A model generated the notes under the pieces. It was not told the origin of the DNA. It saw only the letters and a list, made by a program, of their open reading frames with translations, and made no database searches. DNA of 64,000 nt from Bacillus sp. FSL H8-0547 (GTDB taxonomy: Bacteria > Bacillota > Bacilli > Bacillales > Bacillaceae), in the NCBI GenBank assembly GCA_038002745.1, contig JBBODD010000001.1, forward strand, positions 3,596,001 through 3,660,000, given 5' to 3'. This document shows, one piece after another, positions 1 through 6,974 of this stretch (within the stretch, counting starts at the first letter, position 1; every line of letters begins with the position of its first letter). A program made the position numbers and the translations under genes.

Positions 1-90
1 AAAGCTTGGTTTTGTGAAGGTGCTTGAACAGGAGAATGTTTTCAAAAATTTACTTTAAAAGCTTTTTAATAAAAATGGGCGAATGCACAT

Positions 91-118
91 ACAGGACAGC
101 CACCTACCTCATAATGTA
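91..118 (+). promoter_or_regulatory. Possible sigma-K promoter of the YjcZ-type gene
   Basis: CATAATGTA at 110-118 fits the sigma-K -10 consensus CATAnnnTA, and an AC dinucleotide at 91-92 lies 17 nt upstream, matching the short sigma-K -35 element. It sits about 40 nt before a small gene of a sporulation family, so mother-cell expression late in sporulation is a reasonable inference. Confidence 0.4.
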
Positions 119-157
119 AGGATGTAAAGAAAAACAAAATGAAGAGGTGTTTGATTC

Positions 158-292
158 ATGTACGGTTATGACTGCGGATGTTCATATCCTTCTTATCCGG
201 TTCATTGCGGAGGCGGACTAGGAAGCAGCTTTGTATTGATTGTTGTTCTATTCATTTTGCTTATCATCGTCGGTTCTGCTTATATTTGCTAG
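158..292 (+). CDS. YjcZ family sporulation protein (44 aa)
   Basis: A 44-residue protein starting [10 protein letters not shown], with a Cys/Tyr/Gly-rich head, a GGG turn and then one hydrophobic helix (about residues 25-43) ending in Cys. This layout is typical of the YjcZ/YhcN-neighbour small spore proteins that accumulate in the forespore envelope or coat of Bacillus; their molecular role is unknown. GAAGAGGTG at about 141-149 serves as the ribosome binding site, and a sigma-K-like promoter lies upstream. A clean terminator follows within 10 nt, so it is monocistronic. Confidence 0.85.
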
Positions 293-296
293 TACC

Positions 297-327
297 TGAA
301 AAAGCCTCTGGAATGAGGCTTTTTCTC
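297..327 (+). terminator. Intrinsic terminator after the YjcZ-type gene
   Basis: The hairpin AAGCCTC-tggaat-GAGGCTT is followed by a T run, directly after the 44-aa gene. Confidence 0.8.
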
Positions 328-394
328 ATTTATTGAACACTTTCAATCAATAAATCAATGAAAAAAGCAGAAAATATTTTCTGCTTTCCATACA

Positions 395-949
395 TCAGCT
401 ATTCAGCACTTTTTCCATCACGCTGCGCGTTTTAGGGCCATAGATTCCGTCATCGGCCAGATCAGGGAAGCGCTGCTGGAATTTCAGGACGGCGGCTTTT
501 GTTTTTTCTCCGTAAATGCCGTCTTCAGTCAGTTCTGAACCGATATCATTCAATCCCTGCTGAAGTTTCAGGACGTCGCTGCCTTTGCTTCCCAGCTTGA
601 GGACAGTATTCGGCAGTCCGAAGGTATTGACGTCAATGGACAATGCTTTGTGAGTGTCCGGACCATACACGCCATCTGCCTTCAGGCCTTTTGCTTTCTG
701 GTAGAAGAATACGGTATTGGTTGTTTTCGGTCCGAAAACGCCGTCTACAGTTAGTGAAGCTTCTGCTGCTTCGTTCAAGCCGCGCTGCATAATTTTTACA
801 TTTTCTCCTCTAGCTCCTTCTTTCATAATACCTGATTCAGGTAGTGTGAAGATGTACGGCACATTTTCCTGTGCGCTTGCCTGAGGCACTGACATCCATA
901 GAGCTGAGGCGGTTACGACTGATGCTGATAAGACTTTCCATTTTTTCAT
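395..949 (-). CDS. Secreted peptidoglycan-binding protein with two PG_binding_1 domains
   Basis: The protein starts MKKWKVLSAS with a Sec signal peptide that probably ends at the PQASA-QE site near residue 26. Two PG_binding_1 repeats follow (about residues 40-102 and 112-182), each with the signatures G..VK.LQ..L, .DG.YG..T..AV..FQ. It has no catalytic domain, so it would bind cell wall without cutting it. The first in-frame ATG lies 30 nt farther upstream, but AGGGGAG placed 7 nt before the ATG at 949 favours the shorter form, which also gives a proper signal peptide. It is transcribed away from the TIR operon. Confidence 0.8.
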   Translation of the reverse strand: MKKWKVLSASVVTASALWMSVPQASAQENVPYIFTLPESGIMKEGARGENVKIMQRGLNEAAEASLTVDGVFGPKTTNTVFFYQKAKGLKADGVYGPDTHKALSIDVNTFGLPNTVLKLGSKGSDVLKLQQGLNDIGSELTEDGIYGEKTKAAVLKFQQRFPDLADDGIYGPKTRSVMEKVLNS

Positions 950-1243: not shown

Positions 1244-2041
1244 TTGATCGATACCATTTTTATCAGTCATGCGCACCGTGATGAGGCATATGTCAGAGAG
1301 CTTGTAAATCTGCTGACAATGATCAAGGTGCCGAATATTGTCTGCAGTTCGTATCCCGGCTATCACATTCCTAACGATGAGGATATTTATGATTATCTTC
1401 ATCAAAAACTGAGCGGAAATTCGTGGGTTATCTATGTGCTGTCTGACCATTATTACAAGAGCCCTGCCTGCCTGAATGAAATGGGAGCCTGCTGGATCTT
1501 AAACAAAAAGTACACGGCAATCCTGACGCCTTCATTCGATTACAAAGAGATGAAGGGCGCAATCAATCCAAACCAGATTTCGTTCAAATTGAACGACCTG
1601 GACAGGCTTTATGAGTTTCTTGAAAACGCGAGAGATGTTTTTAAAATAGAAAAACAAACCGGCACATTTCTGGTGAAAATATGCGAGCAGGCAGTCAGTC
1701 ACGTGAATCAGCTTGCTGATGATGAACGCAGAAACAGGAAAATGGCCGGCTGCAGACTTGAGGGCATCCGCCTGGATCCAGAAGACGGAAGGAAATTTCA
1801 GTTCAGGCTGAGACTTTCAAATCCTGAAGAATTTGATATCCGGGTCGATGTCATAAAAATTGAGGCAGCGGATGAAAACGGGGAAACCTTTTCGCAGACA
1901 TTGCAGCCTGCGAATCTGAAGCTTTACAGCAAGGAAAATAAAATTGTTTTTCTTTCTGCGGAGATCGGTGATTCAAACTATGAGCCATACATCCATCAGA
2001 GAGAAACGGTTGATTTGAAGTTCAGCAGAGATGTCTGGTAG
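1244..2041 (+). CDS. TIR domain protein (265 aa)
   Basis: Residues 1 to about 135 look like a TIR domain: the opening strand IDTIFISHAHRDE, helix YVRELVNLL, the strand WVIYVLSDHYY, and SPACLNEMGACW, where the Glu lies at the position of the catalytic glutamate of NAD-cleaving TIR enzymes. Residues about 170-265 are beta-rich and unrecognised, possibly a sensor or binding domain. The start is TTG, chosen because AGGAGGAAGGAG ends 9 nt before it. It is the first gene of a tight three-gene operon (gaps of 29 and 17 nt). Bacterial TIR proteins often serve in antiphage NAD depletion or cyclic-ADPR signalling, but that role is inferred here. There is no transmembrane segment. Confidence 0.75.
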   Translation: MIDTIFISHAHRDEAYVRELVNLLTMIKVPNIVCSSYPGYHIPNDEDIYDYLHQKLSGNSWVIYVLSDHYYKSPACLNEMGACWILNKKYTAILTPSFDYKEMKGAINPNQISFKLNDLDRLYEFLENARDVFKIEKQTGTFLVKICEQAVSHVNQLADDERRNRKMAGCRLEGIRLDPEDGRKFQFRLRLSNPEEFDIRVDVIKIEAADENGETFSQTLQPANLKLYSKENKIVFLSAEIGDSNYEPYIHQRETVDLKFSRDVW

Positions 2042-4507: not shown

Positions 4508-4536
4508 TTGAAATCATTTTCGTCACATTGTAAAAT
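4508..4536 (+). promoter_or_regulatory. Sigma-A promoter of the thrZ leader
   Basis: TTGAAA at 4508-4513, a 17-nt spacer and TAAAAT at 4531-4536 give a good vegetative promoter. It would place the transcript start near 4543, just before the first T-box stem I. Confidence 0.7.
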
Positions 4537-4542
4537 CATGTT

Positions 4543-4831
4543 AATTTAGAAAACGTGATGAAAAGGACACGAGCCATTTTTACCGGTTGCCAGAGAGGGG
4601 AGGACTGCTGGAAACTTCCCAACACGGAAAATGTGCTTACCGCCTTTGAACCGCACGGAGGAAATGCCGTGCCGCAGCCGCTGCGTTAAAGCTCTGGAGC
4701 CGTTGTTTAGGAAAGTTTGGGTAAAGGTTTGCACATCGATGCGGGCACTTACGCTTTTCTAATTCGGGAATCTGGGTGGAACCACGGGCAAAGCGCGCTC
4801 GTCCCTGTCATAGGGATGAGTGCGCTTTTTA
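4543..4831 (+). ncRNA. T-box riboswitch 1 (threonine specifier)
   Basis: This is a tRNA-sensing leader. It shows the stem I AGAGA element (about 4591-4595), a specifier codon ACC (Thr) at 4639-4641 followed by G, the antiterminator T-box core GGGTGGAACCACGGG at 4774-4788 with the UGGA bulge at 4777-4780 that pairs with the tRNA acceptor end, and a terminator stem (GCGC..GTCCCT/AGGGAT..GCGC) ending in T at about 4793-4830. Uncharged tRNA-Thr should stabilise the antiterminator and let transcription continue into the second T-box. Confidence 0.9.
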
Positions 4832-4844
4832 TATTTTATAGGTT

Positions 4845-5220
4845 TTGACAAGGACACGAGGCATGAACACCGCGCAACAGAGAGGGAAGGATGGCTGAGA
4901 ACTTTCCGGCGCAGGAGCATGAACTTACCGCCTTTGAATAACCGTACGGAGGAAATGCCGTGCCGCAGCCGCTGCGTTAAAGCGCTGGAGCTGTTTTTAG
5001 AAAAGTATGGGTAAATGATCTAGCATCTTTGTCCAGCATCAGTGCCCAACTCCTCTGCCAGAACAAAATCCGCCAAAATGGCGGGAACCGGACTTTTCGC
5101 CGGATTTCGTATCTGTCTTTCGGAGCTGAACGGGTACTTACGCTTTTCTAATTCGGAAATCTGGGTGGAACCACGGGCAAAGCGCGCTCGTCCCTGCTAT
5201 AGGGATGAGTGCGCTTTTTT
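4845..5220 (+). ncRNA. T-box riboswitch 2 (threonine specifier), in tandem
   Basis: A second complete T-box follows the first terminator by about 15 nt. It repeats the AGAGA element (about 4880), specifier ACC at 4927-4929, the core GGGTGGAACCACGGG with UGGA at 5166-5169, and a terminator stem with T tract at 5181-5220. The block around 4940-4985 is nearly identical to the first copy, which points to duplication. It differs by roughly 80-100 extra nt before the antiterminator (about 5010-5130) containing nested hairpins, for example CGCC-aaaat-GGCG inside AATCC...GGATT. Confidence 0.9.
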
Positions 5221-5246
5221 ATATTTCTGCGAAAGAAGGGATTATG

Positions 5247-6974
5247 ATGGGAAATCAGAAAAAGGAAAAAAATCAGGAGGACATCAATTATTCTAGTGCA
5301 CAGCTTCTCGCAAGGGCAGTCAGCAGACTGTATCCGGGAGCGGTCCTTGGAGGCGAGGCTTCTCATCAGCACGGTTTTTATGCAGAGCTTCTGCTTCCGC
5401 AAAGCATAAAAGAAAAAGAACTGAAAGACATTGAAGCGGAAATGGAGCGCATCTTAGGACAGGGTGAAAAGTGGGAGCATATTTCGTTATCCCGTGAAGA
5501 AGCCATCGCTTTATTTTCAGAAAAGGGAGAGTATTTAAAAGCAGAGCAGCTGTGTGAGATGGACGAGGAAAGTGTGATAGTTTGCAGACACGGGGAGTAT
5601 ATGAACATATCGAATGAACCCCTCTCCATCTCTGCCATTAAAGCTTTTAAACTTCATGCAGTTGCAGGCGCCTACTGGAAGGGTGACAAGTCAGGACATG
5701 TGCTTCAGCGGATAAGCGGTACAGCATTTGCAAGCAGAAAAGAAATGGTTTTGTTTGAAAAAGAACAGGAGGAACTAAAAAAACGGGATCACCGCAAGAT
5801 TGGAAAAGAGATGGAGCTTTTCCTGTTTTCTGAAGAAGCACCCGGCATGCCCTTTTTCCTGCCAAACGGTCAAATTATGCGCAACGAGCTGCAGTCGCTG
5901 CTCCGGGAGGTTCAGGGTGCAGCAGGCTATCAGGAGGTTTCTTCCCCGTTTATGATGAATGAGCGGCTATGGAGACAATCCGGCCACTGGGATCATTATC
6001 ACGAAAATATGTATTTTTCAGATGTTGATGAAGAAACATTTGCGCTTAAGCCGATGAACTGTCCGGGACACATGATCATGTTTAACCAGCAGCTTTTTTC
6101 CTACAGAGATCTGCCGGTCAGATATGCAGAATTCGGACAGGTGCACCGGCATGAGTACAGCGGCGCCCTGAATGGCCTGCTTAGAGTCCGGACTTTTTGT
6201 CAGGATGATGCTCATTTGTTCGTGCGTCCGGATCAAATACAGGATGAAGTAAAAAGTGTTCTTGGGATGATTGATTATGTCTACCGTACTCTGGGATTTG
6301 ACTATTCGGTCGAGCTTTCAACTAGACCGGAAAATTCAATGGGAGAGGATGAACTATGGCAGGATGCGGAAGCGGCACTGCAGGGAGTGCTGGACGAGAT
6401 GGGGATGCCTTACCGTATAAATGAAGGAGACGGAGCTTTTTACGGACCGAAGATTGATTTCCACATACAGGATGCCATGAAGAGAAGTCATCAATGTGCG
6501 ACAGTACAGCTTGATTTTCAGATGCCTGTGAAGTTTGACTGCAGTTATATCAGCGAGAAAAATGAAAAAGAGCGGCCAGTCGTCATTCACCGCGCCATTG
6601 CAGGCTCTCTTGACAGATTTCTTGGAATTCTTATCGAACACTTTGCCGGTGTGTTTCCATTGTGGCTTGCCCCTGTTCAGGCTGTGATTCTTCCAGTTGC
6701 AGAAGTGCACCGCGGCTATGCAGAAGAAGTCAAAAATAAGCTTGCAGCAAAAGGCATTCGCGTTCAAATGGATGTAAGCGGAGAAAAGCTTGGTTATAAA
6801 ATCAGAAAGGCGCAAAAAAGCAGGGTGCCTTACATGTTGATACTTGGTGATCAGGAAATGAGTGCTGGCCATGTTAATGTCAGGAAACACGGGGAGAAAC
6901 AGTCTCTGACAATGGAGATTGAAGAGCTGGTGGATCATCTCAGGGAGAAGATTGAGAAGCGGGAATTGAGCTGA
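5247..6974 (+). CDS. thrZ: Threonyl-tRNA synthetase, ThrZ-like, lacking TGS and an intact editing site
   Basis: It would charge tRNA-Thr with threonine. The catalytic core is intact: MNCPGHM (zinc Cys), RHEYSGALNGLLRVR (motif 2), CQDDAH (zinc His), VIHRAIAGSLDR (zinc His and motif 3), then a complete anticodon-binding domain. At about 575 residues it is some 65 shorter than usual because the N-terminal TGS domain is absent. The editing domain is present but its four metal-type ligands are gone: the HxxxH motif reads Y15-Q19, and CxxxH reads S122-L126. The ATG at 5247 is 6 nt after GAAGGG; an ATG at 5244 is also possible. Expression is controlled by two upstream T-boxes, as for B. subtilis thrZ, the inducible second ThrRS. 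Confidence 0.92.
   Translation: MGNQKKEKNQEDINYSSAQLLARAVSRLYPGAVLGGEASHQHGFYAELLLPQSIKEKELKDIEAEMERILGQGEKWEHISLSREEAIALFSEKGEYLKAEQLCEMDEESVIVCRHGEYMNISNEPLSISAIKAFKLHAVAGAYWKGDKSGHVLQRISGTAFASRKEMVLFEKEQEELKKRDHRKIGKEMELFLFSEEAPGMPFFLPNGQIMRNELQSLLREVQGAAGYQEVSSPFMMNERLWRQSGHWDHYHENMYFSDVDEETFALKPMNCPGHMIMFNQQLFSYRDLPVRYAEFGQVHRHEYSGALNGLLRVRTFCQDDAHLFVRPDQIQDEVKSVLGMIDYVYRTLGFDYSVELSTRPENSMGEDELWQDAEAALQGVLDEMGMPYRINEGDGAFYGPKIDFHIQDAMKRSHQCATVQLDFQMPVKFDCSYISEKNEKERPVVIHRAIAGSLDRFLGILIEHFAGVFPLWLAPVQAVILPVAEVHRGYAEEVKNKLAAKGIRVQMDVSGEKLGYKIRKAQKSRVPYMLILGDQEMSAGHVNVRKHGEKQSLTMEIEELVDHLREKIEKRELS

Follow-up and report, generated by a model that had tools for sequence, protein, structure and literature searches.

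A ThrZ-type threonyl-tRNA synthetase of Bacillales with replaced editing residues behind tandem T-boxes

Editing by threonyl-tRNA synthetase (ThrRS) is usually regarded as indispensable. Bacillus subtilis has ThrZ as a second ThrRS beside ThrS, and several T-boxes in series before thrZ are already known (PMC2494555; PMC3997798), while ThrRS genes of Bacillota have been reported as the sole synthetase genes under tandem T-boxes (PMC12452182). Here we describe a gene of this type on the plus strand at 5247..6974 of the window, that is, the whole 64,000-nt stretch of Bacillus sp. FSL H8-0547 that was analyzed (JBBODD010000001.1, 3,596,001 to 3,660,000), whose numbering is used for all coordinates below. 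Most ThrZ-type enzymes keep the TGS domain and the four editing residues His, His, Cys, and His (HHCH; 135 rows among the 215 sequences of overlapping collections examined here), whereas in the window enzyme both are lost; no row was identified as the ThrZ of B. subtilis itself. We consider it likely that this enzyme is a backup, inducible and lacking cis proofreading when it charges tRNA-Thr, and that this is tolerated because ThrS can edit in trans.

The closest described counterpart is T2 of Anabaena, likewise a second, stress-induced ThrRS with poor editing that works alongside an accurate housekeeping enzyme, T1; it is induced by zinc shortage and forms Ser-tRNA-Thr, and T1 subunits that pair with it in heterodimers do its proofreading (PMC4787780). 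In T2, HxxxH and DxCRGPH are intact and the impairment comes from a 20-residue insert (PMC4787780), whereas all four residues are gone from the window enzyme, and T2 answers low zinc rather than uncharged tRNA, whereas the window gene stands behind T-boxes. The yeast mitochondrial enzyme MST1 (3UGQ, 4EO4) is alike in having no working editing domain; it charges tRNA and still forms some Ser-tRNA-Thr (PMC4267643). MST1 serves mitochondria, whereas the window enzyme retains a predicted N2 fold and shares its cell with an accurate partner. The ThrRS of Mycoplasma is the housekeeping enzyme of a reduced genome, unlike the second enzyme of the window. It resembles the latter as a proposed bacterial loss of ThrRS editing (PMC4787780). 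ObaO, the obafluorin self-resistance enzyme, is likewise a second ThrRS and shares Met at the position of E. coli residue 489 (M489), but carries Ser at the G463 position, where the window enzyme has Gly (PMC11252418).

The window gene has a stop-free translation of 575 residues, and an in-frame ATG at 5244, with GAAAGAAGG immediately 5', is as good a start as that at 5247. The protein scores 668.8 bits against the NCBIfam thrS model TIGR00418, above the curated cut-off of 383.65, and a Pfam scan at E up to 1 returned the core and anticodon domains only; neither TGS (PF02824) nor tRNA_SAD (PF07973) was matched at that threshold, and there is no space upstream for TGS coding sequence, the second terminator (see below) reaching 5217. 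The class II catalytic core occupies approximately residues 180-466 (5784..6644, plus strand; PF00587, 155.6 bits, and conserved columns) and the anticodon-binding domain residues 478-567 (6678..6947, plus strand; PF03129, 83.7 bits). The core zinc ligands C272, H323, and H448 are present and invariant in the alignment, Y399, G400, and Q421 are present as well, and the E. coli zinc ligands C334, H385, and H511 and active-site residues Q381, D383, Y462, and Q484 all have their counterparts in the window enzyme. Both the absence of TGS and the complete aminoacylation core, as claimed in the original prediction, are borne out by these results. The enzyme groups with the ThrZ-type enzymes of Bacillales, separate from ThrS (SH-aLRT, the Shimodaira-Hasegawa-like approximate likelihood ratio test, 100), and judging from this grouping we regard the gene as a ThrZ-type second ThrRS of Bacillales.

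The N2 editing domain spans approximately residues 13-175 (5283..5771, plus strand), and the alignments and the AlphaFold2 predicted local distance difference test (pLDDT) values, which are 78-94 in each ten-residue block from residue 11 to 180, suggest that its fold is kept while its active site is lost. The phmmer alignment with E. coli ThrRS (1QF6), which runs from residue 5 onward with few gaps, places Y15, Q19, S122, and L126 (the set YQSL) at H73, H77, C182, and H186, and MAFFT with the ThrS of the same genome gives identical columns. The AlphaFold2 model superposes on 1QF6 over 566 aligned residues (5..575 on 63..638; root-mean-square deviation 4.0). The predicted replacements of HxxxH by YxxxQ (15/19) and of CxxxH by SxxxL (122/126) are thus found in both alignments, and at the level of aligned positions neither these nor the superposition gives any sign that the ligands lie elsewhere in the protein. 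The E. coli positions Y104, D180, and K156 are ones which we take to matter for editing; the first two are Ala and Asn in the window enzyme, and K156 is unchanged. The codons concerned, all on the plus strand, are those of Y15 (5289-5291), Q19 (5301-5303), A46 (5382-5384), N120 (5604-5606), S122 (5610-5612), and L126 (5622-5624). The set YQSL is not a sequencing error, because Metabacillus indicus carries the same set in an intact protein of 93% identity. In E. coli ThrRS, C182A or C182S was reported to cost >500-fold in editing, H73A 7000-fold, and H186A 70-fold (PMC4041444); by its sequence, the window enzyme is editing-dead.

Two T-box leaders, each with an intrinsic terminator, precede the gene on the plus strand, in agreement with the double T-box of the original prediction. 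The first leader (4549..4809; RF00230, 73.7 bits, E 7.4e-16) has the specifier ACC at 4639-4641 and an exact T-box motif at 4775-4786, and its terminator (4790..4828) has 18 pairs and a T tail; the second (4836..5198; 49.2 bits, E 1.5e-9) has ACC at 4927-4929, an insert of ~100 nt ahead of the antiterminator, the motif at 5164-5175, and its terminator at 5179..5217. The specifiers were called from loop position; ACCG is unpaired in the minimum free energy fold of both leaders, the energy of the second being ordinary (z -0.53), and the 3' parts of the two leaders are 96% identical over 89 nt. Just 5' of the first leader lies a promoter-like TTGAAA-17-TAAAAT (4508..4536, plus strand; 10/12 consensus matches), which is weak alone, as the region holds five such sites against 3.3 expected. 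Both leaders score below the Rfam gathering threshold of 93 bits and a default Rfam scan reports neither, so that default annotation would overlook the tandem leader at 4549-5198 (plus strand). The ThrS gene of this genome has one T-box motif within 1.3 kb before its start; for 19 of the 20 ThrS examined, the upstream sequence covered was shorter, at 287-405 nt.

The genome has 83 tRNA places, among which ARAGORN, run on all but the L230 stretch, found four tRNA-Thr(UGU) and one tRNA-Thr(GGU). The latter is the sole exact reader of ACC, and its U73 pairs with the UGGA bulge; the one tRNA-Thr(UGU) copy examined has A73. Judging from these pairings, the specifier and bulge of both leaders fit tRNA-Thr(GGU).

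The standard ThrRS that had been presumed elsewhere was found in the genome: a 642-residue ThrS of the usual kind, which has TGS and HHCH and is 43% identical to the window enzyme. The SAD search of the genome returned, besides ThrS, one AlaX-like protein and one long frame, taken for alanyl-tRNA synthetase from its position and size only, and no free-standing protein plausible as a Ser-tRNA-Thr hydrolase. HHCH and TGS are kept in all 20 ThrS sequences examined. Among 46 genomes examined for their ThrRS sets, 43 have an editing-less enzyme and all 43 also have a full-length ThrS-type match, which would fit a loss of editing only where ThrS is present; the remaining three are the genome of L185 (HHCH), G090, whose ThrZ is truncated N-terminally, and G208. 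The last has a single ThrRS place, of the ThrZ type (L183, G208:C2:506375-509680), with a frame broken in the assembly and pieces that show HxxxH and CxxxH. This locus stands after a gene resembling, by eye, the gene before ThrS in the genome of the window, and ThrZ may have replaced ThrS in G208.

Selection on the window gene was estimated against M. indicus at a synonymous divergence (dS) of 0.276. The ratio of nonsynonymous to synonymous substitution (omega) was 0.031 in the catalytic domain and 0.217 in the editing domain. Six overlapping pairs among six altered Metabacillus enzymes gave editing-domain omega of 0.207-0.277, while in 205 overlapping pairs of editing-intact ThrZ at comparable dS the median was 0.096 and no value exceeded 0.199, which is also the maximum among 38 disjoint pairs. 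Low omega in the catalytic domain with higher omega in the editing domain indicates an enzyme kept for charging, with an editing domain that is relaxed but still constrained.

The window enzyme would thus be a second, ThrZ-type ThrRS held in reserve, and the emergency ThrRS for threonine starvation that was originally proposed is probably the right picture, given a second enzyme behind T-boxes. The two serial T-boxes would sense uncharged tRNA-Thr(GGU) and allow transcription when threonyl-tRNA drops. The intact zinc-type core, judging from its residues and from purifying selection, would activate threonine and charge tRNA-Thr. The editing domain would persist as a predicted fold with no hydrolase, TGS being lost, and Ser-tRNA-Thr made by the enzyme would very probably not be cleared in cis. 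This error would be bearable, as the enzyme would be made only under threonine shortage, and ThrS, by analogy with Anabaena T1 and T2, may remove the misplaced serine in trans, either through resampling of Ser-tRNA-Thr or within a heterodimer. Relieved of editing duty, the enzyme family appears to have lost editing several times, and none of the ThrS examined did. The claim that serine is charged onto tRNA-Thr without correction stands only in part: the enzyme is predicted to be editing-dead, but "without correction" goes too far, because ThrS could edit in trans, as T1 does for T2 in Anabaena, and because pre-transfer editing or sharper selection is possible.

The loss can be followed as a graded series in Metabacillus, part of which carries the names Peribacillus or Bacillus sp. 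Orthologs of the window gene occupy the same neighborhood there, and the leaders are conserved with the gene; the synteny comparison covered the genomes behind L005, L007, L008, and L010 (records L034-L037), the HYCH loci L006 and L009 being left out. L010 has HHCH with TGS (39.9 bits) and SAD (41.6 bits); L006 and L009 have HYCH, no detectable TGS, and SAD at 43.4 and 41.1 bits; L007 and L008 have HQYQ, no TGS, and weaker SAD (31.2 and 29.6 bits); and the window enzyme and that of M. indicus have YQSL, the former with neither a TGS nor a SAD match. These seven enzymes form a clade (100/100), within which the six altered ones form an inner clade (98/93). By parsimony, the loss began with TGS and H77 and went on to C182 and H186, while H73 was lost only in the branch of the window enzyme. 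H77 is replaced by Tyr in two and by Gln in four of the series, and may have changed more than once.

Loss of editing recurs beyond Metabacillus. The 215 sequences comprise 20 ThrS, 135 ThrZ with HHCH, 41 core-only enzymes (see below), L023, which a stop interrupts and which was classed among the core-only rows, four rows broken or truncated N-terminally, and 14 rows of altered full-length enzymes (11 distinct). The altered sets are YQSL, HYCH, HQYQ, RLSQ (Virgibacillus salexigens), EQGL (Cytobacillus purgationiresistens), QHCE, EYVL, and KQCL. Five rows were set aside before the trees as broken or cut (L023, L025, L181, L182, and L183), and trees were built from 101 clustered rows of the 215, from the same rows with eight clostridial ones, and from 48 rows picked by hand from the 101. 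The 48-row tree requires six state changes; starred branches force every one of them, and 200 bootstrap trees give a 5-95% range of 6-6. HHCH is present in all eight full-length clostridial enzymes of this type, two of which are identical in the core. We estimate four to six losses among full-length enzymes, and this repeated loss of editing in ThrZ, absent from the original prediction, would be new here. The change of CPGH to CPGA (E. coli H337) was considered as a mark of editing loss and rejected: Ala is found there in all 41 core-only enzymes and in KQCL but also in L185, which has HHCH, and the eight clostridial HHCH enzymes carry Ala, Gly, or Ser. ThrZ-type genes, with 55-57% identity, are also carried by plasmids (such as NZ_CP082364 and NZ_CP064273) in species that include Bacillus badius and Priestia megaterium.

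A more drastic form is a core-only ThrRS of ~400 residues that begins with the catalytic core and lacks both TGS and the editing domain, a layout read by Pfam from one such enzyme. A search of 397 genomes of the order at a threshold of 1e-153, at which some may be missed, found it in 38, and it is also present in G055, G006, and C. purgationiresistens; some of the genome-search matches extended upstream through stops. A ThrRS of ~400 residues without N1 and N2 is known from yeast mitochondria. Core-only enzymes of Bacillales share the domain make-up of MST1 (PMC4267643). A tblastn search with eight editing domains found no remains upstream of the core-only genes at 41 of 41 loci (one with only 331 nt), while the control gave editing-domain hits at 41 of 41 intact loci. 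The 22 core-only representatives form one clade (99) that is nearer to clostridial ThrRS than to the clade of the window enzyme (87, quick tree), and their loss is therefore separate from that of the window enzyme. In a draw of 398 genomes from the phylum, searched with a core-only enzyme at E up to 1e-155, no frame of ~400 residues was among the matches listed, the best of which was a 648-residue frame (1.4e-187) and the shortest 539 residues. In the titles and abstract starts examined, from open-licence literature without preprints, neither a ThrZ that had lost editing nor a core-only bacterial ThrRS was described, which does not prove priority. C. purgationiresistens has three ThrRS genes, encoding ThrS, the full-length EQGL ThrZ, and a core-only enzyme (L092, L219). 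Residues F204, N280, and C432 (codons 5856-5858, 6084-6086, and 6540-6542) are common to the window enzyme and the core-only clade, whereas at least 97% of editing-intact ThrZs carry Tyr, Lys, and Leu in these columns; convergence and inheritance are both possible.

Several observations weigh against the backup that we propose and its repeated loss of editing. In the comparison of the window gene with M. indicus, constraint on the anticodon domain is no tighter (omega 0.239) than on the editing domain, and the dead editing domain, with omega well below 1, does something, perhaps holding the acceptor arm. HYCH, with one of four residues changed, may retain editing. The rows of the 48-row tree were chosen by hand and its bootstrap has not settled (0.974), and the larger quick tree does not reject a single origin of QHCE, EYVL, and KQCL (p 0.566). 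Another four ThrZ rows are simply disrupted or truncated N-terminally, consistent with plain decay. At least two T-box motifs were found in 13/13 dead full-length ThrZ, 37/40 core-only, and 63/132 editing-intact rows with leader sequence (overlapping), a link between tandem T-boxes and editing loss that is suggestive only and is not significant with kinship counted (five independent pairs; sign test median p 1, range 0.25-1). That the enzyme mischarges, that ThrS edits in trans, and that expression is induced are inferences.

Among other explanations, it is possible, although on balance rather unlikely, that ThrS subunits heterodimerize with the window enzyme and that their editing site makes charging by the pair accurate. 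Such editing was demonstrated for Anabaena T1/T2 (PMC4787780), and the presence of ThrS in all 43 genomes with an editing-less second enzyme, as in that of the window, speaks for it, but ThrS and the window enzyme share only the 43% identity given above. We think it unlikely that fidelity is achieved without an editing site, by an active site that rejects serine better or hydrolyzes seryl-adenylate before transfer, as MST1 partly does. MST1 still forms Ser-tRNA-Thr in vitro (PMC4267643), Anabaena T2 has gained no active-site discrimination, with a Thr/Ser specificity ratio of 436 against 314 for T1 (PMC4787780), and the tabulated threonine- and zinc-site residues of the window enzyme are those of editing-intact ThrZ.

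It seems doubtful, though worth stating, that the loss of proofreading was itself selected, with a T-box-gated dead ThrRS letting serine replace threonine under starvation so that translation continues. If so, the tandem T-boxes would keep this induced mistranslation off otherwise, and an inducible, relaxed code would have arisen independently with each of the losses and again in the core-only clade. We give little credence to an inhibitor-resistant ThrRS kept against borrelidin or obafluorin, and the inhibitor attack of the original prediction finds little support. Met is found at E. coli position 489, a hotspot of borrelidin resistance, in 141 of 153 full-length ThrZ rows (126/135 with HHCH; 15/18 others, including four N-terminally broken) and in 42/42 core rows, against Leu in 20/20 ThrS, and induction by uncharged tRNA would also answer an inhibitor. 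However, M489 is common whether the enzyme edits or not and occurs in 7/8 clostridial enzymes of this type, and L489M confers no obafluorin resistance. G463, whose change confers resistance to obafluorin and borrelidin, is kept in all 215 rows (G400 in the window enzyme), the Ser or Ala of the ObaO type being absent, and a Pfam scan found no biosynthetic genes among eight neighbors; a role against borrelidin could still be entertained. A pseudogene on its way out is hardly credible, for although TGS and the editing site are lost and some relatives are broken or cut (L023, L025, L181, and L182), the 575-residue frame is open in two species, the catalytic domain is under strong constraint (omega 0.031), and the leaders are conserved with the gene.

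Elsewhere in the window, a TIR-domain protein (1244-2041, plus strand) matches the C-terminal part of the defense protein SpbK (PADLOC 9.7e-50; Pfam TIR_2, 38.4 bits). Beside it lies a 227-residue protein whose match to an integron-cassette family is below threshold, and this stretch has 94% DNA identity in M. indicus.

In Bacillales with two ThrRSs, the T-box-gated copy would thus lose editing repeatedly, while each housekeeping ThrS examined keeps HHCH, and a core-only layout of ThrRS is common in one bacterial order. This makes two questions testable: whether a second, accurate ThrRS shields the cell by acting in trans, and whether cells starved of threonine tolerate mistranslated threonine codons or make use of them.
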